Shown piece after piece: positions 717-28,892 of a DNA stretch of 32,268 nucleotides. The notes under the pieces are model-generated. The model did not search any database. It had not been told where the DNA came from and was given only the letters and a program-made list of their open reading frames with translations. The position numbers and the translations under genes were made by a program. This DNA is from Eubacteriales bacterium (lineage in GTDB: Bacteria > Bacillota > Clostridia > Tissierellales > Dethiosulfatibacteraceae): positions 1 to 32,268 of the forward strand of contig JAUYTY010000054.1 of assembly GCA_030694905.1 (NCBI GenBank), given 5' to 3'. Numbering within the stretch: position 1 is the first letter of the stretch; every line of letters starts with the position of its first letter.

Positions 717-727
717 GAGGAAAAAAA

Positions 728-958: not shown

Positions 959-983
959 TTCGAAATATTTGGAGGAATAAAAA

Positions 984-1214: not shown

Positions 1215-1252
1215 AAGTAAATAACGAAACAATTTCCTAAGGAGGTGTGAAG

Positions 1253-1807
1253 TTGGATTTTTTCAACAAATTAAAAGAAAATGATCTTTACGATAAATGG
1301 TTTAGAACACCTTACTCATATGTGACGGGAGCTGTATTGCTATCATTGTTTCAAATTGTCCTGCTGGCTGCAACAGGCAGCCCATGGGGCGTTTCTGCCA
1401 CATTCGCCAATTGGGGGGCGTGGCTCTACCAATTGGTTGGCGGCAGTGTTGAAAAATGGTATTACTTCAGTGGTCCCGGTACACCAGGTTCGTTAAGTGT
1501 ATTGGAAGCAGGTTTTTTGAGAAATAGCGGCACAATGTTGAATCTCGGTGTTATCTTTGGTGCTTTATTATCAACTTTACTGGCATCCCAATTTAAGATT
1601 AAAAAAATCAAAAATAAACGACAAATTGTAGCAGCGGTATCTGGTGGTCTAATGATGGGTTATGGCGCAAGAATAGCCTATGGATGCAACATTGGAGCCC
1701 TTTTCGGAGGTATATCCTCTCTTTCATTATCGGGTTGGGTATTTGCAGCATTTATGTTTGTTGGTGCTGTCATTGGCAGCAAGTTATTGGTGAAGTATTT
1801 CATGTAG
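1253..1807 (+). CDS. YeeE/YedE-family transporter half
   Basis: Polytopic membrane protein of about 184 residues, the size of one half of a full YeeE. A hydrophilic N-terminus (about 20 residues, ending near FRTPYSYVTG) leads into four or five hydrophobic segments. The family hallmark GYGARIAYGCNIGALFGGI lies about two-thirds in, with one conserved Cys. I place the start at TTG 1253 because AGGAGG (1240-1245) is 7 bases before it; the in-frame GTG at 1247 is only 1 base from that motif. It follows the tusA pair and precedes the flavoprotein gene, so all five genes probably form one transcript. Split YeeE halves are common in Firmicutes. Whether this half pairs with the upstream protein or works alone is open. 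Confidence 0.88.
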   Translation: MDFFNKLKENDLYDKWFRTPYSYVTGAVLLSLFQIVLLAATGSPWGVSATFANWGAWLYQLVGGSVEKWYYFSGPGTPGSLSVLEAGFLRNSGTMLNLGVIFGALLSTLLASQFKIKKIKNKRQIVAAVSGGLMMGYGARIAYGCNIGALFGGISSLSLSGWVFAAFMFVGAVIGSKLLVKYFM

Positions 1808-1814
1808 ATGACGT

Positions 1815-1840
1815 TGAGCTCAAACAGGTGTTTGAGTTCA
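1815..1840 (+). other. Intercistronic hairpin between yeeE-type gene and flavoprotein gene
   Basis: Arms 1815-1825 and 1830-1840 form an 11-bp stem (one G-U pair) around the tetraloop AGGT. No T-run follows, so it is not a standard terminator. It could be an mRNA processing or stability element that sets different levels for the downstream flavoprotein. Confidence 0.5.
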
Positions 1841-1877
1841 TTGTCTTGAGAAACAAAGAAAGAATAGGAGGTATATC

Positions 1878-3110: not shown

Positions 3111-3124
3111 TTTTTATGTTTATG

Positions 3125-3160
3125 ACGGACTCTTCTGAAATAAGCATTCAGAGAGTCCGT
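3125..3160. terminator. Hairpin between convergent genes, likely bidirectional terminator
   Basis: Arms 3125-3139 and 3147-3160 pair over 14 bases with one bulged T, loop ATAAGCA. It lies between the stop of the flavoprotein gene (3110) and the stop of the minus-strand glycosyltransferase gene (3160). The T-runs on either side are weak, so efficiency is uncertain. Confidence 0.65.
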
Positions 3161-4662
3161 TATTGCACTACCTTATAGATTGTGATCAACCAGTCTTTAT
3201 TATTTTGAAACAACACGAGGCGCATACCATAAGGACTATGGAACTGATGTGCTATTTGACAACGATCATTGAAAAATCTCTGCATATCATCATAGTAAGG
3301 ATATAAATTACCATATATGCCATTCCAGACAGGTCGTCGGTTGTAAATGAAGTTCATTTCTTCAGGATAGATAATGTATTCAATTTCCCTATCCAGAATA
3401 TAGCTTTCAAAGCTTGTGTTCTGTCCTTCCAGAAAATTTAAATTGCGGTAATCGTACAGCGTATTATTTCTAAAGTAAAACTCTGTGTTTAGATTGGCCA
3501 GTACTTTAGCATCATCTGGCACGTAGGTTTGAATCTCGCGAATGTAGTGTTGATAGTGATCTTGCAGATAAGGTGCAATAGCCAGGGATGATATTGAGAT
3601 TTGAACGATTAACAGAACAAAGATGACGGGTGACAAACGAAAACGTTCAATCCAATGAATCACTAGAAGCCAGGCAAAGGGAAAAATGAACACAATACTT
3701 GTCTGATTGAAACGTCCAATCAATATGAATGTCAAATTAATCCCCAAAAGAATAAGCAGGAGTTGCATGACGATTTTGTCTCGTTTTTTAATCACAATGC
3801 TTAATGACGTTATGGCTCCGAAGATACCAAATAAGATGAGTTGCAGGCGAATAGGGGGCATATAGTAGGTACCGCTGACTTGATAAAACAGTTTGCGATA
3901 AAAGTCCACTATTTGGACCGTCCTGTCTACTGAATCATCAAAAACACCGAACTGCTCACCAAACGTTCTGTAATGATAGATGAATTCTGGGTCCATTTTA
4001 AGGCTAATTAACACATAAATCATTGCAAAGCAACCCGTAAGTAGAACATAAGTGATTAAAGGCTTTAAAGAACTTTTTTGGATCAAGACATCATAGCCGT
4101 ACAATAAACCCAATATGACAGCGATAAAAAAGGCATTTGGATGAACACCTATTGCCAATCCCGTCAAAACAGACAGCACAAGATTTTTATAACGGTAATC
4201 CACAAATAGTTTGATATAGGCACAAAGTAGTATCAGCAAAAGAATCAGTATTTCCTGGCGTGCAAAATGGGATGCATAGATAAACTGCACATCAGTTGCC
4301 AACACAATCACCGTGAGAAAGACTAAGCTGCGCCGATGCAGACATTTATGGGCAAACAGATAAAAAATAAACAAAACACCGCAGCTAATCAATAAAGAGA
4401 TCAGCCTCAGAGTATAAGGTGAATAGTTCATTAAGAGAATAAAGAAGGCTTGAATATAGTGAAAAATGATTTTAATGCCATGAGGATAGCGAGGAAACAA
4501 GTCAAAAAAAGACTCCGTAACAGCAGGTGTTCTTTCCTCGAGATATAATCTTGAAAGACCACCAAGCCAGCTTTCATCTGAATGAATGAATGGAAACAGG
4601 TCTAAAAAAAACATGTTAATTAAAAAATAAACAAAAATCAGTATGACAATATATTTTTTCAT
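3160..4662 (-). CDS. Multi-pass membrane glycosyltransferase (GT-C fold, GT39/ArnT-like)
   Basis: Integral membrane protein of 500 residues with roughly ten or more hydrophobic segments in the first 350 residues and a soluble C-terminal part of about 120 residues. Just after the first membrane segment it carries HSDESW (residues 27-32). An acidic DE pair in the first outer loop is the catalytic-site feature of GT-C glycosyltransferases that use polyprenyl-phosphate sugars. The following ASHFARQE resembles the ARPE-type region of the same group. It would transfer a sugar from a lipid carrier to a protein or envelope glycan on the outer face of the membrane. GGAG lies about 7 bases before the ATG. 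It stands alone, convergent with the sulfur locus and divergent from the rhodanese genes. Superfamily call is reasonable; the acceptor is unknown. Confidence 0.72.
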   Translation of the reverse strand: MKKYIVILIFVYFLINMFFLDLFPFIHSDESWLGGLSRLYLEERTPAVTESFFDLFPRYPHGIKIIFHYIQAFFILLMNYSPYTLRLISLLISCGVLFIFYLFAHKCLHRRSLVFLTVIVLATDVQFIYASHFARQEILILLLILLCAYIKLFVDYRYKNLVLSVLTGLAIGVHPNAFFIAVILGLLYGYDVLIQKSSLKPLITYVLLTGCFAMIYVLISLKMDPEFIYHYRTFGEQFGVFDDSVDRTVQIVDFYRKLFYQVSGTYYMPPIRLQLILFGIFGAITSLSIVIKKRDKIVMQLLLILLGINLTFILIGRFNQTSIVFIFPFAWLLVIHWIERFRLSPVIFVLLIVQISISSLAIAPYLQDHYQHYIREIQTYVPDDAKVLANLNTEFYFRNNTLYDYRNLNFLEGQNTSFESYILDREIEYIIYPEEMNFIYNRRPVWNGIYGNLYPYYDDMQRFFNDRCQIAHQFHSPYGMRLVLFQNNKDWLITIYKVVQ

Positions 4663-4698
4663 ACACGCTCCAATGCGTACTTTGACACTATCAAAGCT

Positions 4699-4727
4699 AT
4701 TATACTAGAAAAAAACTATGTTTCCAA
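4699..4727 (-). promoter_or_regulatory. Promoter of the glycosyltransferase gene
   Basis: On the minus strand, a perfect -10 TATAAT (4704-4699) lies 17 bases from a -35-like TTGGAA (4727-4722), 37 bases upstream of the ATG at 4662. Confidence 0.6.
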
Positions 4728-4883
4728 CTGTATTAGCGATTCAAATACTATATTATAAAATGAGATATCTAATAGAGATTCAAATATCTTATAATGATTG
4801 TATATTATTTAACAATTAAGAAAGCAATATAGAAGCGTGTTCAAGCAAAATAATTGCAAAAATGTGTACTATGGAGGATGCAA

Positions 4884-5804
4884 ATGCGAAAAATATCATT
4901 GGTTTTAGCAGTTTTAATAATAATAGTATCAACCTTTGGTTTGTCTGGTTGTGCGAATTATGACTTTGCTGAAACTGGAACAGTTATCATTACAGCGAAA
5001 GAAGCAATTGCATTGATAGGAAATGACAATACGGTTTTAGTTGATCTGAGGAGTCCGGCAGATTATGAAAAGCAACATGTTCAAAATGCCGTCAATGTTC
5101 CTAGAAATGCAATCAATGTTGATGATCCATTTAGCAACATGTTGGCGCCGAAAGAACAGATAGAGGAAGTGATGGGCCAGAACGGAATATCCAATGACAC
5201 GTTGGTGATTGCTTATGATAGTTCCAACAATATGGATGCTTCAAGACTTTGGTGGACACTAATGGCGTATGGCCATGAAAATGTCAAAGTCGTCAGTGGT
5301 GGTTTCAAGGCTCTTGCAGAGGCAAATGCGGGATTGAGTGATATCCCTCCAGTTGTTCAACCAGTCGTTTTCGTGACAAAAGAATTGAATGAGGCTTTCA
5401 TTGCATATAAATCTGATGTCTTGAATCAAGTAAACGACCCTGATGAAAACGTTGTGCTAATTGACACCCGTTCAATTCAAGAGCACAATATGGGGACGAT
5501 ACCAAGTTCATTGAATATTGATTATTTAACTAATAACTATAGCGACGGCACATTTAGATCTATTCAGGATATTCAAATCATGTATTTGGAAAAAGATATC
5601 AAACCGGAAACAACAGTCATTATCTATTGTTTGACATCTATTAGAGGTGCGCAGACATATGCGGCTATGTGGAATGCCGGATATCGGAATCTCAAGCTTT
5701 ATGATGGTGCCTGGACTGAATGGATTGCAGATGAAAGCGTACCTGCAGATATGCCTGGAGAGACTCAAGCACCTGTGAACCCTTCTCAGAGTGACAATAG
5801 TTGA
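4884..5804 (+). CDS. Lipoprotein with two rhodanese domains
   Basis: Extracytoplasmic sulfurtransferase-like lipoprotein of 306 residues. I place the start at ATG 4884, 6 bases after GGAGG (4873-4877), rather than the upstream TTG at 4854. The N-terminus has RK, a hydrophobic core and the lipobox LSGC with C23 as the lipidated residue. The first rhodanese domain (about 33-150) has Asp112 at the catalytic-loop position (YDSSNNMDASRLWW), as in inactive N-domains of tandem thiosulfate or mercaptopyruvate sulfurtransferases. The second domain (about 165-290) keeps a Cys: C249 in the loop CLTSIR. A Pro/Gln/Ser tail follows. It would bind or transfer sulfane sulfur outside the cytoplasmic membrane; the donor is unknown. 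A copy of an intergenic repeat begins at its stop codon, and a four-domain rhodanese lipoprotein follows. Confidence 0.9.
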   Translation: MRKISLVLAVLIIIVSTFGLSGCANYDFAETGTVIITAKEAIALIGNDNTVLVDLRSPADYEKQHVQNAVNVPRNAINVDDPFSNMLAPKEQIEEVMGQNGISNDTLVIAYDSSNNMDASRLWWTLMAYGHENVKVVSGGFKALAEANAGLSDIPPVVQPVVFVTKELNEAFIAYKSDVLNQVNDPDENVVLIDTRSIQEHNMGTIPSSLNIDYLTNNYSDGTFRSIQDIQIMYLEKDIKPETTVIIYCLTSIRGAQTYAAMWNAGYRNLKLYDGAWTEWIADESVPADMPGETQAPVNPSQSDNS

Positions 5805-5933
5805 TCAACAGGGTTCTTGGATTCAGTTGGCGTTTCATACGCCATCTGAACCTTAGAAACCGTTATCCAGGGACTCTACAGTGCTTATCTCCACTTATGG
5901 AAGTGGGATTCTTAGCACTGTTGGTCATCGGAT
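5803..5933 (+). repeat. Intergenic two-hairpin repeat, copy A
   Basis: About 130 bp, starting GATCAACAGGG and ending near CATCGGAT. Hairpin 1 is at 5822-5850 (11-base arms, loop TTTCATA). Hairpin 2 is at 5881-5918 (outer stem GTGCT/AGCAC, internal loop, inner stem CCACTT/AAGTGG). Reverse-complement copy B is at 12242-12371 and a direct copy C at 15178-15295. No ORF is inside. It overlaps the stop codon of the two-rhodanese gene. Confidence 0.92.
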
Positions 5934-6007
5934 GAAGAGTATGTTAACAATAATTGTGTTTTAAATGCTACGAAAGTAGATTTAATATAACAAAAAACGG
6001 AGGACTT

Positions 6008-7750
6008 ATGAAAACAATGATTAAAAGAGGATTACTGGTGTTTATCGCACTAATGCTAGTCTTTAGTTTGGCCGCTTGTGGCCAAAGCACTGTAGCTGCA
6101 CCACCAGCAACAAATACATCGGTTGACCAATCAGTTGATGCTGAAGAAACCTCATTAGAAGATCTAGTAGCTGCGTATTTTACAAATATGCCTGATGATA
6201 TTTACAAAATTGATCAAGGCGCATTTCTAGAAAAGGTTGCTGAAGGTCAAGACATGTTTATTTTGGACATTCGTCAAGCGGATGCTTATGAAAAAGGACA
6301 TGTCAGAGGTGCTGTAAATATTCCTTGGGGTCCGGCTATTGCTGATAGTCTGGAGTTTATTCCTCAAGATCAGACAGTCTATGTGTACTGCTACTCAGGC
6401 CAAACTGCCGGTCAAGCTGTGATGACCTTGAACGCTGCGGGAATAGACGCTAAATCGGTCAATCTAGGATTCAATTTTGGAATCAGTAAAGTAGATGGTC
6501 ATCAAGCGTTTCTTGAAACTGAAGAGTACGTCCTTGGAGCAGAAACATATCCTGTTTCCCCAGAGGTGCAAAGCGCTATTGATGATTATTACTACGGCCT
6601 TTCAGATTCACCATACACCAACTATATCATACCTGAAGTCGCATTAAGAACCCTTATTGATGCTGATGAAGACATTTATGTTTTATCAGTAAGAAGCAAA
6701 GCACACTTCGACGAAGGCCATATCATAGGAGCAGATCATATTGCTTTTGGAAAAGATATGCATTTGGAATTTGATAAAATTCCACAGGACGAACCTGTTT
6801 ATGTTTATTGTTACTCAGGTCAGACTGCCGGACAAGTAGTCGCAGGCCTGAAGTTATTAGGATATGAAGCGTACTCATTGAATGGCGGCATGGGTGTTGG
6901 TGCCAACGCACCACTTGGATGGGCTAATAAAGGATATCCAGTTCACTTTGTTGAAGAAGCCGCTCTTGATTATTTTAAAAATTTCGAGTCCAATAATATC
7001 GTGCCGGCAGCGGATGTGTTAGCAGCTATAGATGCTGAAGAAGATATTTTTATACTGGATATTCGACAAACCGATGTATATGAGCAGGGACATCTTAAAG
7101 GTGCCGTATCCGCACCTTGGAATGGAGAATTGGGACAAATTGTCGACAATCTACCAATGGACAAGTCTGTTTATGTGTATTGCTATACAGGACAAACCGC
7201 CGGACAAGCTGTGGCTCTGTTTAGGATGGCAGGCATTGATGCGAAGTCTATCGGCTTAGGTTTCGTCAGAGGCATATCCAAAGTTGAAGGCATTGATAAC
7301 TATTTGGAAACAGAAGAAAATGTTTTGGAAACAGATAAAGTAAATGAAATCAATCCAGCAGTGCGAAGCGCCGTTGTAAAGTATTTTGAAGCTATGGCTG
7401 CTTCTGAAATCACAAACTTCATTATCCCATCAACCGGATTGTTTGATAAACTTCAAACTGGAGACGAATCGATCTTTGTGATCTCTGCCAGACAACCTGA
7501 TGTGTATGCCGAAGGGCATATTGACACAGCTGTCAACATGCCATTTGGTTTAGATATGAATGCTTATTTCAAAGAAATACCAAGAGATAAGACAGCAATT
7601 GTTTATTGCTATACAGGTCAAACAGCTGGCCAGGCTATCGCAGTACTCAGAATGCTAGGCTATCAGGCATGGAGTTTGAATAGTGGTATGGGAACGCCTG
7701 CTACTGCACCGGCAGGATGGGTAAATGAAGGTTTCCCGGTTGTTAAGTAA
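6008..7750 (+). CDS. Lipoprotein with four tandem rhodanese domains
   Basis: Predicted surface lipoprotein of 580 residues. ATG 6008 is chosen because GGAGG ends 4-5 bases upstream and gives a clean signal peptide (KR, hydrophobic core, lipobox LAAC, C24). Four rhodanese domains follow, each with a six-residue active loop: CYSGQT at C128 and C268, CYTGQT at C392 and C534. All four catalytic Cys are kept. Domains 1 and 3 resemble each other (FILDIRQ…, GISKV, the LETEE linker), as do 2 and 4 (GGMG/SGMG, APLGW/APAGW). The Cys spacing is 264 residues between 1 and 3 and 266 between 2 and 4, so the gene arose by duplicating a two-domain unit. Rhodaneses move sulfane sulfur; here the likely role is extracellular capture or relay of sulfur (inference). 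A strong terminator follows. Confidence 0.92.
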   Translation: MKTMIKRGLLVFIALMLVFSLAACGQSTVAAPPATNTSVDQSVDAEETSLEDLVAAYFTNMPDDIYKIDQGAFLEKVAEGQDMFILDIRQADAYEKGHVRGAVNIPWGPAIADSLEFIPQDQTVYVYCYSGQTAGQAVMTLNAAGIDAKSVNLGFNFGISKVDGHQAFLETEEYVLGAETYPVSPEVQSAIDDYYYGLSDSPYTNYIIPEVALRTLIDADEDIYVLSVRSKAHFDEGHIIGADHIAFGKDMHLEFDKIPQDEPVYVYCYSGQTAGQVVAGLKLLGYEAYSLNGGMGVGANAPLGWANKGYPVHFVEEAALDYFKNFESNNIVPAADVLAAIDAEEDIFILDIRQTDVYEQGHLKGAVSAPWNGELGQIVDNLPMDKSVYVYCYTGQTAGQAVALFRMAGIDAKSIGLGFVRGISKVEGIDNYLETEENVLETDKVNEINPAVRSAVVKYFEAMAASEITNFIIPSTGLFDKLQTGDESIFVISARQPDVYAEGHIDTAVNMPFGLDMNAYFKEIPRDKTAIVYCYTGQTAGQAIAVLRMLGYQAWSLNSGMGTPATAPAGWVNEGFPVVK

Positions 7751-13998: not shown

Positions 13999-15069
13999 CT
14001 ACTTTATATTTATATTCATTGATTTAATACCATCCGCTGTAAATATTCTTATCACGTTACCGTCATGCAAAGTTGCATTGATGGTTGATTGTGAGTTGTG
14101 AAGTAGATTTACCTTGTCATCTTTTATGTATGAAATATACTGATTTCCAGTCAGTATTAAAAACCCCTCATAAAAGTCCAGCTTGTTATATTGGTGTTCG
14201 GATGTCACTTTGCTCATCAATTTGCCATCCTTGCTGATGATATGTAGATTGGTGCCGCTGTCACCTTCGAGAACATAGAGTTCTCCATTGACAAATCTCA
14301 TATCCTTTAGATTGTCATATCCGCCATATTGCCACAGGACAACACCTTGAGTGTTCAATTTATAGATGTTTCTGTTGGTTGCCAGATAAGTGCCGTCCTT
14401 GCCTGGTTCAAGAAATATGACAAGTTCATTCACAAATTCCGTTTCCCAAAGCTGGTAGTAGTCTTTTGTCAGATATTCGCTGATAGTGCTGATAATCACA
14501 TTTCCGTCATAGTCAAATGCACTTACAATGATAGCGTTTGAGTTTAAAGACTTCCTCACGTTCACCACTCTTTTTGTGTTTTTATTGATTACTCCGTTTG
14601 CAACATAGTTTTGGTCAAATATTTCTATGTAATTGTTGGTATAGTCCAAATCTGAAGTCAAGGCATATATGGCTGTGTCTTCCAGAATATTCAAAAGGTT
14701 TTTCTGAATCAGATCAATCTCAAAATTGGAATCGCTGTTGAGTATATGCAATGAACCGTCCTCTGTCATTATTACAGTGTCACTGTTTATAAATATTTTT
14801 TCGATAAATGTATCAAATTCCTTATTGCTCAGCAGGCTTCCCTTATAGTCGTAAGCTGTCAGATTATTTTCCGTTAGCTTGTAAAAAAAACCCTTTTCCA
14901 AAAATATTTTTGAGCTTTTGAGGTCAATGTTAACTTCTTCAGTATCGGACAAGAAAACGGTGTCTCTGTTCAAGTATTTATCAATCACTTCCAAGCCACC
15001 AGCGTAGTAAACCACGAAAAGCAGCACGATTGCCATAAAAAGAAGCAATACAAGTATTTTTTTGATCAT
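13999..15069 (-). CDS. Membrane-anchored beta-propeller-like protein (DUF5711-like)
   Basis: 356 residues. One N-terminal membrane helix follows MIKK and the rest is predicted outside. The body is a series of short beta-rich blocks with spaced aromatic, Gly and Asp residues (for example LTAYDYKGSLLS, MTEDGSLHILN, YKLNTQGVVLWQYGG), as in PQQ/WD-like propellers. The LNTQGVVLWQYGG unit is especially propeller-like. I place the start at ATG 15069, since AGGTG (15080-15076) is 6 bases upstream; the GTG at 15078 overlaps that motif. It leads the operon with cvpA, yedF and the DUF951 gene. No enzymatic motif is seen. The DUF5711 assignment is from memory of the family's shape and clostridial context, so moderate confidence. 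Confidence 0.68.
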   Translation of the reverse strand: MIKKILVLLLFMAIVLLFVVYYAGGLEVIDKYLNRDTVFLSDTEEVNIDLKSSKIFLEKGFFYKLTENNLTAYDYKGSLLSNKEFDTFIEKIFINSDTVIMTEDGSLHILNSDSNFEIDLIQKNLLNILEDTAIYALTSDLDYTNNYIEIFDQNYVANGVINKNTKRVVNVRKSLNSNAIIVSAFDYDGNVIISTISEYLTKDYYQLWETEFVNELVIFLEPGKDGTYLATNRNIYKLNTQGVVLWQYGGYDNLKDMRFVNGELYVLEGDSGTNLHIISKDGKLMSKVTSEHQYNKLDFYEGFLILTGNQYISYIKDDKVNLLHNSQSTINATLHDGNVIRIFTADGIKSMNINIK

Positions 15070-15085
15070 GTACATCACCTAATTT

Positions 15086-15094
15086 ATTATAACA
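15086..15094 (-). promoter_or_regulatory. Extended -10 promoter of the propeller-cvpA-yedF operon
   Basis: Minus-strand TGTTATAAT (15094-15086) gives a perfect -10 with an upstream TGn extension. No good -35 is visible. Transcription would start very near the gene, giving a short leader. Confidence 0.45.
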
Positions 15095-15177
15095 CATCAA
15101 TTTATGACATGTATTAGATTTGAATTAATTTTTGCATTTAGAACATTATATATAAATAACATGCCTAAGTAAATAGA

Positions 15178-15295
15178 GATCAACAGGATTCTTGGGTTCA
15201 GGTGGTGTTTCATACGCCGTCTGAACCTTAGAAACCGTTATCAAGGGACTCTACAGTGCTTGTCTCCCACTGATAGAAGTGGGAGTCTTAGCACT
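15178..15295 (+). repeat. Intergenic two-hairpin repeat, copy C
   Basis: A more diverged copy in the same orientation as A. Hairpin 1 keeps pairing despite changes (TGGTG facing CGCCG through wobble pairs). Hairpin 2 is strengthened (CTCCCACT/AGTGGGAG). It lacks the GTTGGTCATCGGAT end and runs directly into the hydrogenase terminator. Confidence 0.88.
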
Positions 15296-15325
15296 AAAAA
15301 AGACCGGGATTTAAAAGCCCGGTCT
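15296..15325 (-). terminator. Terminator of the hydrogenase operon
   Basis: Minus-strand 8-bp stem AGACCGGG/CCCGGTCT (15325-15318 with 15308-15301) followed by a six-T run, 9 bases after the hydrogenase stop codon. Confidence 0.93.
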
Positions 15326-15333
15326 CTCGCTAT

Positions 15334-17133
15334 TTAGATCAAATCGTCAAAATCCTTCTGGTTTTCTATCACATACTGCTTTTTCGCAGTGTAATGTGTG
15401 TGAAGCAGTTTATGAGACAGGTGGCTGTTTGGTTCTTTCAGATAGTCCGCATAAAGCTTGATCACCTCAGGATTTTTGTGTGATTTCCGGTTAGCCATTA
15501 TCACATCTTCCGCATAAAGGGCATTGGCTCTGCTTATTTTAGGGTTCACATCCAATCTATCTTTTGAGGACACATGAGATTGTCCGCCGCCATGTACACA
15601 TCCTCCAGGACAAGCCATCACTTCAATAAAGTGATAGTTTCTCTTTCCGGCTTTAATTGCTTCCAGCACCAATGCCGCATTCTTTGTGCCATGTACCACA
15701 GCAACATTGACATCAGTTTCCACGCCTCCAATCGGCAGTCTCAAGGTTGCTTCCTTTACACCCTCAATGCCTCTGACCGCTTGGTACTCTATGTCTTCAA
15801 GATCTTCTCCTGTCAGTATGTCCGCCACTGTTCTCAACGCAGCTTCCATAACACCACCGGTTGCTCCGAATATAACACCGGCTCCTGTGTATTCTCCCAG
15901 AACCTTGTCGAAATCTTCGTCCGGCAATCTTTTGAAGTCGATTCTAGCCTGCTTGATCATATTTCCCAATTCCCTAGTCGTCAACGAGAAATCAACATCT
16001 CTTATGCCATCAACTTCCATTTCCGGTCTTGCGGCTTCAGATTTTTTAGATGTGCAAGGCATAATTGAAACAACAACCATCTTTTTCGGATCCAAACCCA
16101 TTTTCTCAGCATAATATGACTTGGCAATGGCGCCAAACATCTGTTGAGGTGATTTGCATGAAGAAAGGTTTTCGACAAACTCCGGATAGAATATCTCGCA
16201 ATATCGTATCCAACCTGGTGAACAGGAGGTGATCATTGGCAATTTTCCACCATTCTTGATCCTGCCCAGCAATTCTGTTCCTTCCTCTAGTATTGTCAGG
16301 TCTGCTGTAAAATCTGTGTCGAATACATTATTGAATCCTAATCTCCTAAGGCCCGCAACCATCTTGCCTGTCACTCTAGTTCCAACAGGCATTCCAAATT
16401 CCTCGCCTAGTGATGCCCTAACTGCAGGCGCTGTCTGAACAATTACGTATTTATCCGGATCATCAAGAGCATCCCATACGTCATCTATGTTTGTTCTTTC
16501 TCTCAAAGCCGCCACTGGACATGCCTGTATGCACTGTCCACAGTAGACGCAGGGCGCATCCGCCATTGAATAATCAAAAGCAGGAGCAACTTCTGTCTCA
16601 AAACCCCTCTTGGTAAAATCTAAGATTCCAATGCCTTGAACATCTTTGCAGACGCTGATACATCTGCCACACAGGATACATTTACTGGAATCTCTAACAA
16701 TAGAGCTTGAAATGTTATCCAGACGTACTTTTCTCTTTTGTCCTTGATAAGGGATTTCACCAATGCCCATCTCATCGCATAGCTTTTGCAGTTCACAGGT
16801 TCCATTTCTGAAGCAAGTCAGACACTCTCTGTTGTGATTTGCAAGAATTAATTCCAGATTTGTTCTGACTGCTTCTCTTACCCTTGTTGTGTTGGTTCTG
16901 ACATTCATACCATTTTCGACTTTCAGCACACAGGAAGCTGGAAGATTTCTTAATGGCCTTCCATCTATATCCGCTTCAACCACGCATAGCCTGCAAGCGG
17001 CTATTTCGTTTATATCTTTCAAATAACACAATGTCGGTATGTCAATATTGACCTCCCTGGCTGCCATTAAAACTGTATAATCCGCTGGAACAAATACTTC
17101 CATACCGTTAATTGTTACTTTAACTTTATCCAC
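15334..17133 (-). CDS. hndD: [FeFe] hydrogenase catalytic subunit of a bifurcating HndABCD/HydABC complex
   Basis: Reversible H2-forming subunit, 599 residues, cytosolic. N-terminal [2Fe-2S] domain (C36, C47, C50, C68), His-Cys3 [4Fe-4S] site (H100, C104, C107, C113), two ferredoxin clusters (C152/155/158/162 and C195/198/201/205), then the H-cluster domain. Its motifs are TSCSPGW (302-308), MPCTSKK (358-364) and MACPGGC (506-512), and the HKLLHTHYT tail is typical. The second residue of the first motif pair is Ser305, where many monomeric enzymes have a proton-transfer Cys. I place the start at GTG 17133, since AGGAGG (17147-17142) is 8 bases upstream; the GTG at 17139 is only 2 bases from it. 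It is last in the operon with three electron-transfer subunits, so it probably couples NAD(P)H plus ferredoxin oxidation to H2 production, or the reverse. Confidence 0.96.
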   Translation of the reverse strand: MDKVKVTINGMEVFVPADYTVLMAAREVNIDIPTLCYLKDINEIAACRLCVVEADIDGRPLRNLPASCVLKVENGMNVRTNTTRVREAVRTNLELILANHNRECLTCFRNGTCELQKLCDEMGIGEIPYQGQKRKVRLDNISSSIVRDSSKCILCGRCISVCKDVQGIGILDFTKRGFETEVAPAFDYSMADAPCVYCGQCIQACPVAALRERTNIDDVWDALDDPDKYVIVQTAPAVRASLGEEFGMPVGTRVTGKMVAGLRRLGFNNVFDTDFTADLTILEEGTELLGRIKNGGKLPMITSCSPGWIRYCEIFYPEFVENLSSCKSPQQMFGAIAKSYYAEKMGLDPKKMVVVSIMPCTSKKSEAARPEMEVDGIRDVDFSLTTRELGNMIKQARIDFKRLPDEDFDKVLGEYTGAGVIFGATGGVMEAALRTVADILTGEDLEDIEYQAVRGIEGVKEATLRLPIGGVETDVNVAVVHGTKNAALVLEAIKAGKRNYHFIEVMACPGGCVHGGGQSHVSSKDRLDVNPKISRANALYAEDVIMANRKSHKNPEVIKLYADYLKEPNSHLSHKLLHTHYTAKKQYVIENQKDFDDLI

Positions 17134-17148
17134 ACTCACACCCTCCTT

Positions 17149-18939
17149 CTACTTTTTTACTATTGCATCAAATGGACATGCTTCCATACATGCGCCACAC
17201 TTGATGCATTTTTCCTGATCTATAACGTGAAGTTCTTTGACTTTTCCAGTTATGCATCCTACCGGACATTGTCTGACACATTTTGTGCAGCCTCTGCAAT
17301 TGTCTGTGATAGAATAGTTCAATAATGCTGAACAGGTCCCTGCAGGGCATCTTTTGTCAAGCACATGTGCCTCGTACTCGTCCCTGAAATATCTTAAAGT
17401 TGATAAAACAGGATTTGGCGCTGTTTGTCCAAGTCCGCAAAGGGATGTGCTTCTGATGTTATTTGCCAGCTTTTCAAGCTTATCAAGATCAGACATGACC
17501 GCTTTTCCCTGTGTGATATCCTCCAATATTTCCAGCATTCTCTTGGTTCCTTCACGGCATGGCGTACATTTTCCACAGGATTCCTCAACAGTGAATTCAA
17601 GGAAAAATCTAGCTATATCCACCATACAATTGTCTTCATCCATTACAATCATTCCACCGGAACCCATCATAGAACCAAGGTCTGTCAATGTATCAAAATC
17701 TATTTTTGTGTCAATATAATCGGCTGTGATGCAACCGCCTGAAGGTCCTCCTGTCTGTACGGCTTTAAACGCTTTACCATTAGGACATCCGCCACCTATA
17801 TCATAGATGACTTCTCTCAGAGAAGTACCCATAGGTATTTCAACAAGGCCTGTATTGTTTATTTTTCCACCAAGTGCAAAAACCTTGGTGCCTGGAGATT
17901 TTTCGGATCCAAATGATTTAAACCACTTAGCGCCGTTTATGATTATCTGAGGAATGTTTGCCAGTGTTTCAACATTGTTGATAATTGTCGGCTTCCCAAA
18001 CAATCCACTAACTGCTGGAAATGGCGGTTTATTTCTTGACATTCCTCTCTTGCCCTCTATTGAAGCCATAAGGGCTGTCTCTTCTCCACAGACGAATGCG
18101 CCTGCTCCCAATCTTATCTCAACATCAAAATCGAATCCGGATTCAAATATGTTCTTCCCGAGAAGTCCCATGGTCTTAGCTTGTCCGATAGCTATCTCAA
18201 GCCTTTTTACCGCTATTGGATATTCAGCCCTTACATAAACAAATCCTTTTGATGCGCCTATGGCATAACCGGCTATGGCCATTGCTTCCAGAACTGCATG
18301 CGGGTCTCCTTCAAGAACACTTCTATCCATGAACGCGCCTGGATCTCCTTCGTCAGCGTTGCAGATTATATACTTCTGATCTGCTTTATTAGGTGCTGCA
18401 AAGCTCCATTTTGCGCCAGTTGGAAAACCTCCGCCCCCTCTTCCCCTAAGGTTGGAATCCTTAACCACTTTTATAACCTCTTCAGGTGTCATTTCGGTCA
18501 AAGCTCTCCCCAAAGCCAGGTATCCATCTCTAGCAATATATTCTTCAATATTTTCAGGATTGATTAGCCCACAATTTCTCAGAGCGACTCTTTTCTGTTT
18601 GCTGTAAAAGTCAATCTGATTAAGCGATTTTAATTTCTGGTCTGCAATACTTTCCTCATATAGAAATTCTCTTACGATTCTCCCTTTATATAAATGCTCC
18701 TCTACAATCCTGTCAACCCGATTGATCTGCATTTTGGAATAAAATGAGCCCTCAGGGTATACAACCACTATCGGTCCCTCTTCGCATAATCCGAAGCAAC
18801 CGGTGCTTATAACCTGAACTTCTTTATCAAGATTCATTTCTTTGATTTTCTCTTCGAATCTTTTTTTGATCAGGTCCGATTTAGAAGAAGCACATCCTGT
18901 ACCTCCACATACTAAAACATGTGATCTGTAAATAGCCAT
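17149..18939 (-). CDS. hndC: NuoF-like flavin subunit of the bifurcating hydrogenase
   Basis: 596 residues. An N-terminal thioredoxin-like [2Fe-2S] domain (C11, C16, C48, C52) is followed by the NuoF core with the FMN/NADH-binding loop GRGGGGFPTG at 166-175 and the [4Fe-4S] motif SCGKCTPCREG near residue 470. The C-terminus adds two [4Fe-4S] ferredoxin motifs (CRGCTKCVRQCP and CIKCGACMEACP). This matches HydB/HndC, where NAD(P)H oxidation at FMN is the proposed bifurcation site. AAGGAGG lies 7 bases before ATG 18939. The spacing to hndD is short, consistent with one transcript. Confidence 0.96.
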   Translation of the reverse strand: MAIYRSHVLVCGGTGCASSKSDLIKKRFEEKIKEMNLDKEVQVISTGCFGLCEEGPIVVVYPEGSFYSKMQINRVDRIVEEHLYKGRIVREFLYEESIADQKLKSLNQIDFYSKQKRVALRNCGLINPENIEEYIARDGYLALGRALTEMTPEEVIKVVKDSNLRGRGGGGFPTGAKWSFAAPNKADQKYIICNADEGDPGAFMDRSVLEGDPHAVLEAMAIAGYAIGASKGFVYVRAEYPIAVKRLEIAIGQAKTMGLLGKNIFESGFDFDVEIRLGAGAFVCGEETALMASIEGKRGMSRNKPPFPAVSGLFGKPTIINNVETLANIPQIIINGAKWFKSFGSEKSPGTKVFALGGKINNTGLVEIPMGTSLREVIYDIGGGCPNGKAFKAVQTGGPSGGCITADYIDTKIDFDTLTDLGSMMGSGGMIVMDEDNCMVDIARFFLEFTVEESCGKCTPCREGTKRMLEILEDITQGKAVMSDLDKLEKLANNIRSTSLCGLGQTAPNPVLSTLRYFRDEYEAHVLDKRCPAGTCSALLNYSITDNCRGCTKCVRQCPVGCITGKVKELHVIDQEKCIKCGACMEACPFDAIVKK

Positions 18940-18969
18940 ACTTGCCCTCCTTTATATGATGCCATTAGA

Positions 18970-19335
18970 TTATTTTATGTATCCTATCGTATATTCCTTA
19001 ACAGCGCGTCCATGTACCAGATGCTCCGCAACAACGCGCTTGACCTTATCAACATCCATGTGTATATAAGTCACCTTTTCTTTGTCAGGTGAGGTGATTT
19101 CCACAATAGGCTCGTATGTGCACATTCCGATACATCCTGTCTGCACAACCTGAACTTCATTCAGATGTCTCTTTTGTACCTCTTCTATAAAGCTTTGCAA
19201 TACCGGTCTCGCTCCGGCTGAAATGCCACATGTGGCCATCCCGACGACAACTCTGGTGGTCTTTTCGGAATCTCTCAATTCGAGGTTTTTCTTGGCCTCA
19301 TCTCTGATTTTCTTTAGCTCATCTAATGATTTCAT
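18970..19335 (-). CDS. hndB: Thioredoxin-like ferredoxin subunit (HndB-like)
   Basis: 121 residues. After an N-terminal helix of about 25 residues comes a thioredoxin-like ferredoxin fold with MATCGISAGA (C36) and TGCIGMC (C68, C72). Only three Cys are present in the whole protein, while the classic [2Fe-2S] fold uses four, so cluster binding needs a non-Cys ligand or may be absent. It lies between the NuoE-like and NuoF-like genes, as HndB does in the four-gene hnd operons. AGGAGG is 6 bases before ATG 19335. Confidence 0.9.
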   Translation of the reverse strand: MKSLDELKKIRDEAKKNLELRDSEKTTRVVVGMATCGISAGARPVLQSFIEEVQKRHLNEVQVVQTGCIGMCTYEPIVEITSPDKEKVTYIHMDVDKVKRVVAEHLVHGRAVKEYTIGYIK

Positions 19336-19344
19336 ATCTGCCTC

Positions 19345-19836
19345 CTATTTTTTTCTATAGCTTTCTATAATTTCCGGGATTTTTTTAGGCTCCAGCTTGC
19401 CGTAAACCGAGTCCCCAATCATGATGACCGGTGCAAGGCCACAACAGCCTAGACATCTCGTCGCTTCCAAGGTAAACAAACCATCTTCTGTGGTTTCTCC
19501 AACCGATATCTTCAGTGTCTTGATCAATTGGTCCAAAACCAGTTGGGAGCTCTTGACATAACATGCAGTACCCATACAGACACCCACTGTATACTTTCCT
19601 TTTGGTTCCAATGAGAATTGTGTGTAGAATGTTGCAACACCATAGACTTCCGCCATTGGTATTTTGGTTTTTTCTGATACAAACTTTTGAACTTCAATGG
19701 GCAGATAACCAAAAAGCTCCTGAGCCTTATGTAATGTCTGCATTAATACGCCTTGAGACTCGTCCTGTCTTTCAATATATGCTGACAGTTCTTCGAATTT
19801 AGTTACATTTTCTTTAATGTCTATAACCTTTTGCAC
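19345..19836 (-). CDS. hndA: NuoE-like [2Fe-2S] subunit of the bifurcating hydrogenase
   Basis: 163 residues. A helical N-terminal part (SQGVLMQTLHKAQELFGYLP) precedes a thioredoxin-like domain with C87-x4-C92 (CMGTAC) and C128-x3-C132 (CLGCC), the four NuoE cluster ligands. It passes electrons between the flavin subunit and the hydrogenase. GTG 19836 is the start, 6 bases after AGGAGG (19848-19843). It is the first gene of hndABCD, behind a consensus promoter. Confidence 0.95.
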   Translation of the reverse strand: MQKVIDIKENVTKFEELSAYIERQDESQGVLMQTLHKAQELFGYLPIEVQKFVSEKTKIPMAEVYGVATFYTQFSLEPKGKYTVGVCMGTACYVKSSQLVLDQLIKTLKISVGETTEDGLFTLEATRCLGCCGLAPVIMIGDSVYGKLEPKKIPEIIESYRKK

Positions 19837-19879
19837 TTTATACCTCCTTATAATTACAGTTTTTCAGGATACCAAAGAT

Positions 19880-19908
19880 ATTATACGATACTGTTAATTT
19901 TATGTCAA
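19880..19908 (-). promoter_or_regulatory. Consensus promoter of the hydrogenase operon
   Basis: Minus strand: -35 TTGACA (19908-19903), a 17-base spacer and -10 TATAAT (19885-19880), all perfect matches to the housekeeping consensus. The leader to GTG 19836 is about 37 bases. The -35 lies inside a 22-bp palindrome. Confidence 0.88.
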
Positions 19909-19922
19909 TTTAAATTGACATA
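19901..19922. promoter_or_regulatory. Perfect 22-bp palindrome over the -35 box: candidate repressor operator
   Basis: TATGTCAATTT and its exact reverse complement form an uninterrupted palindrome covering the -35 element of the hnd promoter. A protein bound here would block RNA polymerase. It does not match the clostridial Rex consensus (TTGTTAA-N4-TTAACAA) or the Fnr site (TTGAT-N4-ATCAA). Confidence 0.7.
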
Positions 19923-20066
19923 TTTATGACAATCTTCAGCAATTTTTAATATATTCTACACAATCACATTCATATATAACGTTAACTGATAAATCTTATC
20001 AAATAGTGTAAAGAAATTAGTCCTATCTATGTTTGTTAAATAAATATCATTTCTTTCCAATTCATT

Positions 20067-20097
20067 AAAAAAACATGTCCTTTTTGCATAGGACATG
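20067..20097 (-). terminator. Terminator after spo0J
   Basis: Minus-strand hairpin with 8-bp stem CATGTCCT/AGGACATG (20097-20090 and 20081-20074) followed by seven T's. It ends the large origin-proximal transcript. The rest of 19923-20066 is AT-rich with no gene. Confidence 0.88.
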
Positions 20098-20129
20098 CTT
20101 TGTTTTCGTGTGAAATTTTAATCGTTAAT

Positions 20130-20990
20130 TCAAAATTTATCAGATATGATGTTTATAATTCTTGACAGATCATCATCATCTGTAAAAAACAGTTGGATCT
20201 TGCCTGATTTCCTGCTTCTCTGAATGTCTACCTTTGTGCCCAGCTCTTCAGATAAGGTTTCTTCAATATGCATGATATTAGCTTCCTTCATTTTCTTAAG
20301 GACTCTCTTTTTGCCTGACTTTTGCCGCTCTTTCAGGTTCTTGACCAGATTCTCAGTCTCTCTGACACTGAGGTGCTTTTCCATAATCTGCTTTGTAATG
20401 TCTTTGATCTCCTTTTCGCCCAAACCGATCAACGCTTTGCCATGTCCAGTAGACAAAGCACCCTCAGCGATGAATTGCTGAACGTAGAGGGGAAGCTTCA
20501 GCAGTCTGAGTATATTGGTGACATAAACCCTGCTCTTGCCAACAATATCCGAGACCTCCTCCTGAGTGATATCATATCTTTCCATGATTACTCTGTAAGC
20601 CAATGCCTCATCAATTGAATTAAGGTCTTCTCTTTGGATATTTTCTGTAAGGGCCAACTCTTCCTGGCTTCTATTGCCTATGTCTCTGACTATGGAAGGA
20701 ATCTCCTTCAATCCGGCCTTTCTGGAGGCTTTCCATCTTCTCTCGCCTGCGATGATCTGATAGTGATCTTCTACTTTTTTGACAATTATTGGCTGGATGA
20801 CGCCATGCCTTTCGATGGATCTGGCAAGCTCATCTATCTTTTCGTCGTCCACTGATTTTCTAGGTTGCATGGGGTTTGGCACAATCAGATCCAGCTTAAT
20901 GTTCACAATTGAGTTCTCGTCGATCTTTTCCAATTCTTCAGTTATCAGTGCCGATAGCCCTTTTCCTAAAGCTTTTCTTTTAATTACCAT
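20130..20990 (-). CDS. spo0J: Chromosome-partitioning protein ParB/Spo0J
   Basis: 286 residues. N-terminal KALGKGLSAL, then the ParB CTPase/nuclease-like domain with PRKS at about 42-45 and GERRWKASRKAG near 107. A central helix-turn-helix (EVSDIVGKSRVYVTNILRLL) binds parS, and a C-terminal dimerisation segment follows. It binds parS around oriC, spreads as a clamp and stimulates Soj. The start is 10 bases after the soj stop, with a GGGGGA ribosome site containing the soj stop region. It is a paralog of noc two genes upstream; a candidate parS lies in yedF. Confidence 0.95.
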   Translation of the reverse strand: MVIKRKALGKGLSALITEELEKIDENSIVNIKLDLIVPNPMQPRKSVDDEKIDELARSIERHGVIQPIIVKKVEDHYQIIAGERRWKASRKAGLKEIPSIVRDIGNRSQEELALTENIQREDLNSIDEALAYRVIMERYDITQEEVSDIVGKSRVYVTNILRLLKLPLYVQQFIAEGALSTGHGKALIGLGEKEIKDITKQIMEKHLSVRETENLVKNLKERQKSGKKRVLKKMKEANIMHIEETLSEELGTKVDIQRSRKSGKIQLFFTDDDDLSRIINIISDKF

Positions 20991-21000
20991 ATGATCCCCC

Positions 21001-21762
21001 TCAATTCCTTTCTAAAAACTCGTCTGCCAGCAGGACATAGGCTTCTGCGCCTTTTGACTTGCTGTCATAATCGACTATGGACATCCCAAAGCTTGGTGCC
21101 TCTGCCAATCTTACATTTCTTGGTACAATGGATTTGTAAACCTTGTTTCTAAAGTACTTTTTAACTTCTTCAACAACTTGTATGGACAGATTGGTTCTGC
21201 CGTCATACATATTCAATACAATACCCTCTATCTCAAGCTTGGGGTTTAGGTTTCTCTTGACCAGCTTGACAGTGTTGACAAGCTGGCTTACGCCCTCGAG
21301 GGCATAGTATTCGCATTGTATTGGTATAATCACGCTATCTGCCGCTGTCAGCGCGTTTATTGACAACAAACCCAAAGATGGTGGGCAATCTATAAAAATA
21401 TAGTCATAGTCATTTCTGATTTCTTCCAATATATGTTTCAATGTGTTCTCTCTATGGTCGGCTTTGGTCAGTTCAATCTCAGCCCCTGCAAGATCTATGT
21501 TAGCAGGCAAAACATGTAGATTCTCAACGCCCATTATGATAATAGCCTCAGCAATTGGCATTTCGTTGAACAAGCAATCGTATATGGTAGTCTCCAACTG
21601 ATTCTTATCTATCCCAAAACCACTGGTGGAGTTGCCCTGTGGGTCAATATCAATTGACAAAATCCTATGACCCTTTGATGCCAATATTGATGACAGATTC
21701 ACATTGGTGGTCGTTTTGCCAACGCCTCCCTTTTGGTTGAATATCGCTATGATTTTGCTCAT
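21001..21762 (-). CDS. soj: ParA-type ATPase Soj
   Basis: 253 residues. Deviant Walker A KGGVGKTT at 11-18, with the signature Lys of ParA/MinD ATPases. DIDPQGNST (about 39-47) and the FIDCPPSLG Walker B region are present. It acts with Spo0J in origin segregation and in control of DnaA. AGGTGA ribosome site, 8 bases after noc. Confidence 0.97.
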   Translation of the reverse strand: MSKIIAIFNQKGGVGKTTTNVNLSSILASKGHRILSIDIDPQGNSTSGFGIDKNQLETTIYDCLFNEMPIAEAIIIMGVENLHVLPANIDLAGAEIELTKADHRENTLKHILEEIRNDYDYIFIDCPPSLGLLSINALTAADSVIIPIQCEYYALEGVSQLVNTVKLVKRNLNPKLEIEGIVLNMYDGRTNLSIQVVEEVKKYFRNKVYKSIVPRNVRLAEAPSFGMSIVDYDSKSKGAEAYVLLADEFLERN

Positions 21763-21770
21763 GCGTCACC

Positions 21771-22568
21771 TCATGTCCTGGTTTTTGGAATCCTTATCTT
21801 CACTTCTATATGGTCTTCGTTCTCATTCTCTTCATATCCGGCATTGACACCTGTTTTCAAGATCTCATTGTAGGCGTGTTTGATTGTATTGACATATATC
21901 TTATAATTGATGTAATTCTTGAAAGAACGCTTTGATTCCTTTTCCTTCTTATTGTCCCGTTTTTTTATTATATCATCAATAAGCTTCTCCGTCTCTGCAA
22001 CGGTCATATTTTTCTTTAAAATCTTCCTGGCAACCCTGAGCTGCAATGGTTCATCCTTAAGTTTCAGCAGACATCTGCAATGCCTTTCAGTCAGTACCCC
22101 ATCGATTATCATATCCTTTATATCATCCTGGAGTTTTAGAAGCCTCAATTTATTGGCAATGGTAGACTGTCTCTTCCCAATTCTCTCTCCAAGCTCGCTT
22201 TGGTTGATTCCAAAAACAATCATTAGATTCAAGTAGGCTTCTGCCTCTTCCAATGCATTCAAATCTTCTCTTTGAAGATTCTCTATCAGCGCAATGGCTG
22301 ATGAGTCCTTATCGACCATGTCCATCACTATAGAGGGTATCTCTTTCATTCCTGCCAGCTGTGCCGCTCTGAATCTTCTCTCACCGGCAATGATTTCATA
22401 ATGGCCGCTGTTTATCTCTCTTAGTGAAATCGGCTGAATCAGGCCATATGATTTAATGGAAGAAGAAAGTTCTTTCAACGATTTTTGATCAAAGGCCCTT
22501 CTTGGTTGATGTCGGTTAGGTGAAATCTTTTCCATGCTGATTAGCTCAACTTTTTGTAAGGGTTCCAT
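21771..22568 (-). CDS. noc: Nucleoid occlusion protein Noc (ParB family)
   Basis: 265 residues, ParB-like. N-terminal ISPNRHQPRR, GERRFRAAQLAG and NLQREDLNALEEAEAY boxes, then a helix-turn-helix (QSELGERIGKRQSTIANKLRLL). Position between rsmG and soj is the standard site of noc in Firmicutes, separating it from spo0J. It binds Noc-binding sites and prevents division over the nucleoid. The C-terminus is divergent and Lys/Glu-rich. AAGGAGA precedes ATG 22568. Confidence 0.92.
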   Translation of the reverse strand: MEPLQKVELISMEKISPNRHQPRRAFDQKSLKELSSSIKSYGLIQPISLREINSGHYEIIAGERRFRAAQLAGMKEIPSIVMDMVDKDSSAIALIENLQREDLNALEEAEAYLNLMIVFGINQSELGERIGKRQSTIANKLRLLKLQDDIKDMIIDGVLTERHCRCLLKLKDEPLQLRVARKILKKNMTVAETEKLIDDIIKKRDNKKEKESKRSFKNYINYKIYVNTIKHAYNEILKTGVNAGYEENENEDHIEVKIRIPKTRT

Positions 22569-22590
22569 TATATCTCCTTGTGTGATTTAT

Positions 22591-23301
22591 TTAGAGTGGC
22601 TTCCTGGATGGTGTGCCTGCTTTTCTGGGGTATCTTTCAGGTGTGTCGGATACTTTTTTGATCATAACAACACTTCTGCCCATATCAGTACCCGGAATCA
22701 CATATTTAATGACACTAACCACCTCTCCACCTAATAATTTAACAGCTTTCTCCCCATTTTTCAATTCATCTTCAATATTTTCTCCTTTTAAGGCAATAAA
22801 AACACCACCCATCTTGACAAAAGGAAGACAATATTCCGATAATACATTGATTGAAGCAACAGCTCTTGAAGTGGCCACATCATACTTTTGTCGAAACTCA
22901 ATACTTGTGCCAAAATCTTCAGCTCTGCCGTGTATCAATATGACATCCTTCAAACTAAGAGCGTCCACTACCGCCTGTAAAAAAGCGATTCGCTTGTTCA
23001 AACTATCAAGCAGCGTCAATCGGATGGCCTCATCCATTATCTTCATGGGGATTCCTGGAAATCCGCCGCCTGTTCCAACATCTATGAGGCTGTAGGGAGT
23101 TTTGCTTCCAATATACTGGTTGACGATTGCACTGTCAATAAAATGCTTGATATAAATGTCCCTGCTCTCTGTTATAGCTGTAATGTTTATTTTTTGGTTC
23201 CATTCCAGAATCAGTTTCTCATAATCCAGAAACTGATTGATCTGTTTTGCTGTGATTGCTATATCTGACTGTCTAAATAAAGTTTCCAATAGATTATTCA
23301 T
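22591..23301 (-). CDS. rsmG: 16S rRNA (guanine-N7) methyltransferase RsmG
   Basis: 236 residues. SAM-binding loop [12 protein letters not shown] near residue 77 and the flanking [10 protein letters not shown] segment identify GidB/RsmG, which methylates G527 of 16S rRNA. The C-terminus is basic. It overlaps the mnmG end by 8 bases and is co-transcribed with it. Confidence 0.96.
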
Positions 23302-25195
23302 CTGATTCCTTCATCCTCTTTTTTTGTTCCATGTAAATCATCAAAACATTTATATCAGCAGGCGATACGCCAGATATTCTCGAGGCCTGACCTAAAGAAT
23401 CAGGGAGTATTTTTGATAGCTTCTGTCTCGCTTCAATTCTTAATCCTTTTATATCGTTGTAATCTAAATCTTCCGGTATTTTTTTGTTTTCGAGTCTTTT
23501 AAATTGCTCAATCTGCTTGAATTGCTTTGCGATGTAGCCTTCATATTTGATTTGCGTCTCAATTTGTGTGATGATGTTAATATCCAGCTCAGGACGACTA
23601 ATATCGAGGTGCTTCAACCTTTTGTAATTGAGTTCCGGTCGCCTTAGCAGTTCGTACATGGATAACGGTGATTTTAAAGGGACAGAGTCAATGCTCACCA
23701 GATATTCATTGATTTCAGGCTTCGGTGTGATCATGGTACCTTTCAATCTGAGTATTTCCTTTTCGAGATTCTCCTTCTTAGCCAGAAACTTTTCCAATCT
23801 GTCTTCTCCAACCAAACCTGCATCGTATCCTTTTCCGGTCAATCTCAGGTCTGCATTGTCCTGCCGAAGGACCAACCTGTACTCAGCTCGTGATGTCATC
23901 ATTCTATAGGGCTCATCTGTTCCCTTGGTCACCAGGTCATCTATCAATACACCTATGTAGGCCTCGGACCTGTCCAGAATAATCTGCTCCCTGCAATTCA
24001 GTTTCAGTACAGCATTGATTCCGGCAATCAGTCCCTGACCGGCTGCCTCCTCATACCCGGAGCTTCCATTTACCTGGCCTGCAAAATAGAGGTTTTCAAT
24101 AGTTTTGATCTCCAGAGTCCTTTTCAATTGAGTGGGATCTATACAATCATACTCAATAGCGTAAGCAGGCCTCATAATCTGACAATCCTCAAGACCCTCC
24201 ACACTCTGATACATTAACAGTTGAACCTCTTCAGGCAATGTGGTCGAAAATCCCTGGATATACATCTCTTTTGTGTCGATACCTTCTGGTTCGACAAATA
24301 TCTGATGTTTTGTCTTATCAAAAAATCTGACAACCTTATCTTCTATTGAAGGGCAGTATCTCGGACCGACGCTCTCCATATGACCGGCATACATTGGCGA
24401 CCTGGAAAGGTTCTCTCTTATGATACTGTGGGTTGATTCGTTGGTATATGTGAGATAACAAGGCACCTGGTCTATACTGACTGACTCAGTCATAAATGAG
24501 AAAGGAACTATATCCCTGTCGCCTTCCTGCAACTCCATCACCTCGAGATGAATCGAATCTCTGTGAACCCTTGCCGGTGTACCGGTCTTGAATCTTCTCA
24601 AATGTATCCCGTTGTCCTTCAATGATTGAGATAAGGCATTGGCTGGGAATAACCCTGATGGCCCACCCTCATAATTGACTTCGCCTATATATATTCTGCC
24701 TTTCAGATAAGTACCGGTGCACACTATTATGGCATCTGTTTCATAATAACCGCCAGTCCTTGTCAGAACACCCTTCGCTTTTCCACCATCAACATCTATT
24801 CTGATGGCCTCCGCCTGTTTCAAATCAAGATTCGGCTCATTCTCTATGACCTGTTTCATATTGACATGATACTGCCTCTTGTCCGCTTGTGCACGTAAGG
24901 AATGAACTGCTGGACCTTTTGAGGTATTGAGCATCTTAAACTGAATCATTGACTTATCTGTTATCAATGCCATCTGTCCACCTAAGGCATCAATCTCCCT
25001 AACCAAGTGTCCCTTTCCTGTTCCACCGATGTTTGGGTTGCAAGCCATCATGGCTATCGCATCCAGGCTCATAGTCAATATCAGTGTCTTTTTTCCCATT
25101 CTTGCAGTGGCTAGAGCAGCCTCGCAGCCTGCATGGCCAGCACCAATAACAACAACATCGTATTTACCTGCTAAAAATCTAATATCTTCTTTCAA
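23294..25195 (-). CDS. mnmG: tRNA uridine-5-carboxymethylaminomethyl modification enzyme MnmG
   Basis: FAD protein that, with MnmE, modifies the wobble uridine of certain tRNAs. About 633 residues. FAD-binding [12 protein letters not shown] near the N-terminus, [23 protein letters not shown], and the C-terminal helical MnmE/tRNA-binding part ending [14 protein letters not shown] choose TTG 25195 as start: GGAGG (25205-25201) is 5 bases upstream, and the shorter N-terminus fits the family. The alternative GTG at 25207 overlaps the mnmE stop by one base and has no ribosome site of its own. Confidence 0.95.
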
Positions 25196-28863: not shown

Positions 28864-28892
28864 ATTATATTAATATCGTCTATAGATGTCAA
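28864..28892 (-). promoter_or_regulatory. Consensus promoter of rpmH-rnpA cluster
   Basis: Minus strand TTGACA (28892-28887), 17-base spacer, TATAAT (28869-28864): perfect consensus, about 68 bases before the rpmH start. Confidence 0.88.

Follow-up and report, generated by a model that had tools for sequence, protein, structure and literature searches.

The closest described counterparts of the promoter analyzed here are operators of Rex, an NADH-sensing repressor that also controls its own gene and binds as a dimer to two half-sites separated by a fixed 4-nt spacer; the general Rex palindrome is TTGTGAANNNNTTCACAA, with half-sites TTGTNAA and TTNACAA. The clostridial Rex consensus is TTGTTAANNNNTTAACAA; in C. 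thermocellum, the motif was characterized by DAP-seq and EMSA, and the [FeFe]-hydrogenase operon was reported to be bound (PMC8457756); for C. bescii, binding of Rex at the Hyd operon was reported from EMSA (PMC6391272). The hnd operon in the window (the whole stretch of DNA analyzed, 32,268 nt in length) shares with these operons (Clo1313_1885-1881 and Athe_1295-1299, respectively) the type of target and the half-site TTAACRA, and likewise combines an overlap between the putative operator and the promoter with the presence of rex in the genome; furthermore, rex genes of the order are preceded by the same element as hnd. Unlike in the clostridial operators, the left half-site at hnd is replaced by the -35 box TTGACA, resulting in an imperfect dyad, and the genus to which the window belongs adds an inverted TGTCAA arm upstream. 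From the comparison of promoters, we consider it quite probable that transcription of hnd starts from a consensus housekeeping promoter with a fused Rex operator, and that Rex represses the operon at low NADH.

The promoter resides in a 293-nt intergenic region with a GC content of 24%, ahead of four genes in the order hndA-hndB-hndC-hndD (Table 1). The neighbors of hnd are parB and housekeeping genes, and no regulator gene adjoining the operon was found among the open reading frames of the window. The hairpin upstream of hnd, which was flagged on the plus strand only in a scan with a loop limit of 8, is likely to terminate the parB operon, so that hnd is probably insulated and driven from its own promoter. 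At the far side of the window, positions 117-7750, adjoining the replication origin region, are occupied by a sulfur-handling cluster that includes YeeE/YedE-like membrane proteins, a thioredoxin reductase-thioredoxin-like protein, and two- and four-domain rhodanese lipoproteins.

Table 1. Features of the hnd operon and its upstream region, in coordinates of the window
Feature	Position	Strand	Basis
hndD, NADH-dependent [FeFe] hydrogenase, group A6	15334..17139	-	NF040763, 897 bits vs cut-off 765
hndC, NuoF-like NADH-binding subunit	17149..18939	-	NF010120 above cut-off
hndB, thioredoxin-like [2Fe-2S] protein	18970..19335	-	profile match below curated cut-off
hndA, NuoE/HoxE-like [2Fe-2S] subunit, GTG start	19345..19836	-	profile match
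Ribosome-binding site AAGGAGG for hndA	19843..19849	-	direct reading
-10 box TATAAT	19880..19885	-	promoter scan
Deeply conserved half-site TTAACAG (TTAACRA) in promoter spacer	19891..19897	-	hnd promoter comparison
Putative Rex-like operator TTGACAT-AAAA-TTAACAG over the -35 box and half of the spacer	19891..19908	-	10/14 specified positions of TTGTTAANNNNTTAACAA
-35 box TTGACA, right arm of the palindrome	19903..19908	-	promoter scan; invariant in hnd promoters of two families
Perfect 22-bp palindrome TATGTCAATTTAAATTGACATA	19901..19922		direct reading; identical in congeners G001 and G002
Upstream palindrome arm TATGTCAATTT, lineage-specific	19912..19922	-	comparison with congeners and sister genus
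Hairpin and T run, likely parB operon terminator upstream of hnd	20067..20097	-	direct reading, inverted-repeat search

The preliminary description of this DNA reported perfect -35 and -10 boxes at 17-base spacing, and the two boxes indeed match the consensus at all 12 positions with a 17-nt spacer between them, the sole such match within positions 15000-23500. The same description surmised that so strong a promoter is probably repressed. Repression indeed appears probable. Perfect boxes, however, are not rare: the exact pattern TTGACA-N17-TATAAT has 36 copies in this genome, so that the strength of the boxes alone does not point to a repressor, and the reasoning from strength, taken by itself, is weak. 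The window contains a second exact consensus promoter (28864-28892, minus strand) ahead of an open reading frame that looks like rnpA, with a similar promoter in G003 (C42:177051-177079).

The preliminary description also dismissed Rex. However, offset by 12 bp downstream from the palindrome, the promoter holds an 18-bp Rex-type element, TTGACA-N5-TTAAC(A/G), that is conserved across two families and recurs, in the same fused form, at a second hydrogenase operon as well as ahead of rex genes. The element spans the -35 box and the spacer, that is, the core promoter of the operon for the group A6 NADH-dependent [FeFe] hydrogenase. TTAAC is found at the identical spacer position in 22 of the 30 distinct hnd promoters of the two families, and in 23 of the 53 promoters compared, against 0.1 expected and a maximum of 4 in 10,000 shuffles. 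Column by column, the hnd promoters are conserved in TTGACA, ATTAACR and TATAAT, the rest of the spacer being only weakly conserved. In its generalized single-site form, TTGACAW-NNNN-TTAACRA, the element reads as an imperfect clostridial Rex operator, the left half-site of which would be bent to double as the -35 box. The left half of the site in the window, compromised by the -35 box, retains 4 of the 7 consensus positions, and the complete site scores 10/14, compared with up to 12/14 in relatives, for example, TTGACAATAAATTAACAA in G005; by this measure, the putative operator is weaker in this genus than in its relatives. Genome-wide, the relaxed Rex consensus shows no enrichment (384 matches vs 487 for the reversed control) and, accordingly, the case for Rex rests on comparative evidence. 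The base preceding the -35 box is A in 20 of 21 non-redundant hnd promoters, and ATTGACA together with ATTAACA would equally make up a direct repeat, of 11-bp period, in addition to the inverted arrangement of Rex half-sites.

A rex gene is present in this genome, with a winged-helix domain and Rex as the best NCBIfam matches, its open frame being truncated in this assembly where the contig stops. Six rex promoters are readable in the family, and all of them have TTGTTAA as an unchanged half-site. Among 150 genomes of the order, the exact pattern TTGACA-N5-TTAACR-N6-TATAAT occurs at 28 sites, and the reversed pattern at none; the gene downstream is hnd at 23 of these sites and rex at three, and of the other two sites, one lies ahead of the DRTGG/[FeFe]-hydrogenase operon of this genome and one ahead of a further gene. 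The three rex genes belong to two other families (f10 and f11), and an additional rex gene (family f16) is preceded by TTGACA-N5-TTAAC with TAGAAT as the -10 box. An element common to hydrogenase genes and rex itself fits Rex together with its autoregulation. Within this genome, only 2 of the 36 consensus promoters carry TTAAC at this place in the spacer, and both drive hydrogenase operons. In the second of these, at C41:7249-7277 (L218, minus strand), the -10 box is covered by another Rex-like site, ATGTTATAATTTTAACAA; the other three genera of the family have variants of the element ahead of their DRTGG hydrogenase operon. All this points toward Rex, a known regulator, and repression of hnd is likely. 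The operon behind the promoter at C41:7249-7277 reads DRTGG / HATPase / [FeFe]-hydrogenase-like / DRTGG / PHP; both of its overlapping Rex-like sites are kept in G005, and the one at the -35 box is also kept in G003, G006 and G007.

The palindrome presents the other facet of this promoter. Renewed reading of positions 19901-19922 agrees with the earlier report of an exact 22-bp palindrome containing the -35 box; on the minus strand, the palindrome and the promoter read TATGTCAATTTAAATTGACATAAAATTAACAGTATCGTATAATATC. It is the longest perfect palindrome of the window, the runner-up being 16 bp long, and when the whole window was shuffled by dinucleotides, 6 of 300 sequences contained a palindrome of at least 22 bp; for the intergenic region, this was seen in 13 of 20,000 shuffled sequences. 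The length of the palindrome by itself is only mildly unusual, whereas its placement on the -35 box is clearly unusual. Three species of the genus (the source genome, G001 and G002) have the palindrome in perfect form; in G002, it is identical to that in the window at 22 of 22 positions, compared with 8 of 20 in the adjacent 20 nt upstream. The sister genus (G003 and G004) has the TGTCAA arm with a spacer that is 1 bp shorter (5 vs 6 nt), and the arm is absent from the hnd promoters compared in the remaining two genera of the family. Being kept in the genus, variant in the sister genus and missing in the other two genera, the palindrome is under selection, yet young. Lack of conservation upstream of hnd in relatives, which the preliminary description regarded as the observation that would count against the palindrome, is not what we find, although the conservation holds at the level of the genus.

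What the upstream arm does is a separate question from the Rex-like element, and several readings have to be weighed. The palindrome itself was considered as a Rex operator: its arms, TGTCAA and TTGACA, resemble TTGTNAA and TTNACAA, but they are 6 nt apart in the three species and 5 nt apart in the sister genus, instead of 4, and for this reason the palindrome is not a canonical Rex site. The site of GlnR/TnrA is TGTNA-N7-TNACA; the sister-genus form, TGTCA-N7-TGACA, fits this pattern, in contrast to the form in the window, TGTCA-N8-TGACA, and a nitrogen-related context is absent. We also considered the palindrome as the operator of a regulator with multiple targets, which would be expected to show at further promoters. 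In pattern searches, on which all the genome-wide counts are based, the palindrome is single-copy in the 2.8-Mb genome with up to 3 mismatches allowed, and no other promoter-positioned copy was found in this genome among the sites examined (at most 3 mismatches, and the exact N5 and N6 forms). Across the family, ten other TGTCAA-N5/6-TTGACA sites were examined; nine of them fall within open frames, and the remaining one has no clear promoter position. Allowing up to 2 mismatches, TGTCAA-N6-TTGACA has 241 matches in this genome vs 141 for the reversed control, an excess that is uninformative given that TTGACA is itself a promoter box.

The preliminary description proposed that a different redox or metabolic regulator acts here, but the genome search, having turned up no second copy at a promoter, gives no sign of a regulon, and a dedicated second regulator is left without regulon support. 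A narrower version of this proposal, in which a repressor or activator other than Rex uses the palindrome as its operator and controls solely hnd in this genus and its sister genus, would account for a perfect dyad lying over the -35 box, for the complete conservation of this dyad in G002 next to upstream DNA of about 40% identity, for the retention of the TGTCAA arm in the sister genus, and for a 6-nt spacer that is unsuited to Rex. It is harder to reconcile with the absence of other promoter-positioned copies from this genome, with the 1-bp shift of spacing in the sister genus, which a dimer of fixed geometry does not normally tolerate, and with the genes beside hnd, parB and housekeeping genes with no regulator among them; nor was the motif found printed in the literature searched. 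On balance, such a regulator seems rather doubtful.

A different perspective comes from a scan of 249 genomes for an upstream TGTCA arm next to TTGACA-N5-TTAAC. Of the ten sites that it yielded, hnd accounts for five and rex genes of other families for two; two more fall within open frames, and there is one other. All seven promoter-positioned sites among these are at hnd or rex, which, small as the numbers are and variable as the spacing is, hints that the upstream arm belongs to Rex-regulated promoters. The arm could then be an extra Rex half-site (TGTCAA...TTGACA, with widened spacing) that supports cooperative loading of Rex beside the main operator. Each arm is similar to the general half-site TTGTNAA/TTNACAA; the rex promoter of G032, from another family, has ATGTCA-N6-TGACAT at the same place, with canonical Rex spacing; and the rex promoter of G022 also has an upstream TGTCA arm. 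Nevertheless, the four cases do not agree in spacing, and only one of them has the canonical distance, at odds with the fixed 4-nt spacer known for Rex dimers, and the sample is small, so that we view an extra Rex half-site as somewhat unlikely.

The symmetry could also be accidental, the arm being simply an AT-rich upstream promoter element. The sequence directly upstream of the -35 box is AT-rich in all relatives, and the chance of a 22-bp palindrome anywhere in such a window is about 2%; conversely, the conservation in G002 stops precisely where the palindrome does, and five genomes retain the G and C of TGTCAA, which AT-richness does not require. We regard an accident of this kind as unlikely. 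Far more improbable is a bidirectional promoter, in which the arms would be two -35 boxes facing opposite ways: although TTGACA is present on both strands of the palindrome, there is no -10 box at 16-18 nt from the plus-strand TTGACA (AGCAAT is found at 17 nt), and a plus-strand transcript would enter parB antisense. The tentative reading that we are inclined to entertain, albeit with less than even confidence, is that the palindrome provides a second control site, specific to the genus and used either by another regulator or by Rex in a three-half-site array with non-canonical spacing. If so, hnd would integrate two signals at one -35 box.

Apart from this arm, the control of hnd is probably ordinary. 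Under the preferred reading, a Rex operator fused into the promoter, the -35 hexamer would serve also as the outer part of the left Rex half-site, and TTAAC(A/G) in the spacer would be the right half-site. We infer Rex binding and NADH control from the comparisons described above: at a low level of NADH relative to NAD+, Rex would cover the -35 box and block RNA polymerase; once NADH builds up, the departure of Rex would free the strong promoter to drive production of the NADH-oxidizing, H2-producing hydrogenase, through which the electrons would be disposed of as hydrogen. The palindrome is due to an additional TGTCAA arm, inverted and situated a short distance upstream of the -35 box; on the simplest guess, this arm modifies the binding of Rex or of the polymerase at the hnd promoter alone. 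It appears, then, that Rex control of NADH-dependent hydrogenases, with the operator fused into the -35 box and the spacer, may also operate in an uncultured lineage close to Dethiosulfatibacter and in the order to which this lineage belongs. The upstream arm represents a small case of a promoter acquiring an inverted copy of its own -35 box, and the locus as a whole offers the lesson that a perfect palindrome spotted by eye may adjoin the real operator instead of marking it.

Several further Rex-like sites were observed. In this genome, a TTAACAA-type site, AAGTTAATAAATTAACAA, is located at C129:61121-61138 (L210) before a pair of genes with [2Fe-2S] and [FeFe]-hydrogenase domains, and the promoter of the related gene pair in G007 is fused with TTGATA-N5-TTAACG. 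At C129:4878-4895 (L151), 134 nt before an acyl-CoA transferase-like gene, there is a near-perfect Rex site, TTGTTAATTGAATAACAA, and this gene is a plausible further target of Rex. In the window itself, a Rex-like site with 2 mismatches, TTGTATATTATTTAACAA, occupies positions 4798-4815, just before the two-domain rhodanese lipoprotein gene at 4854.
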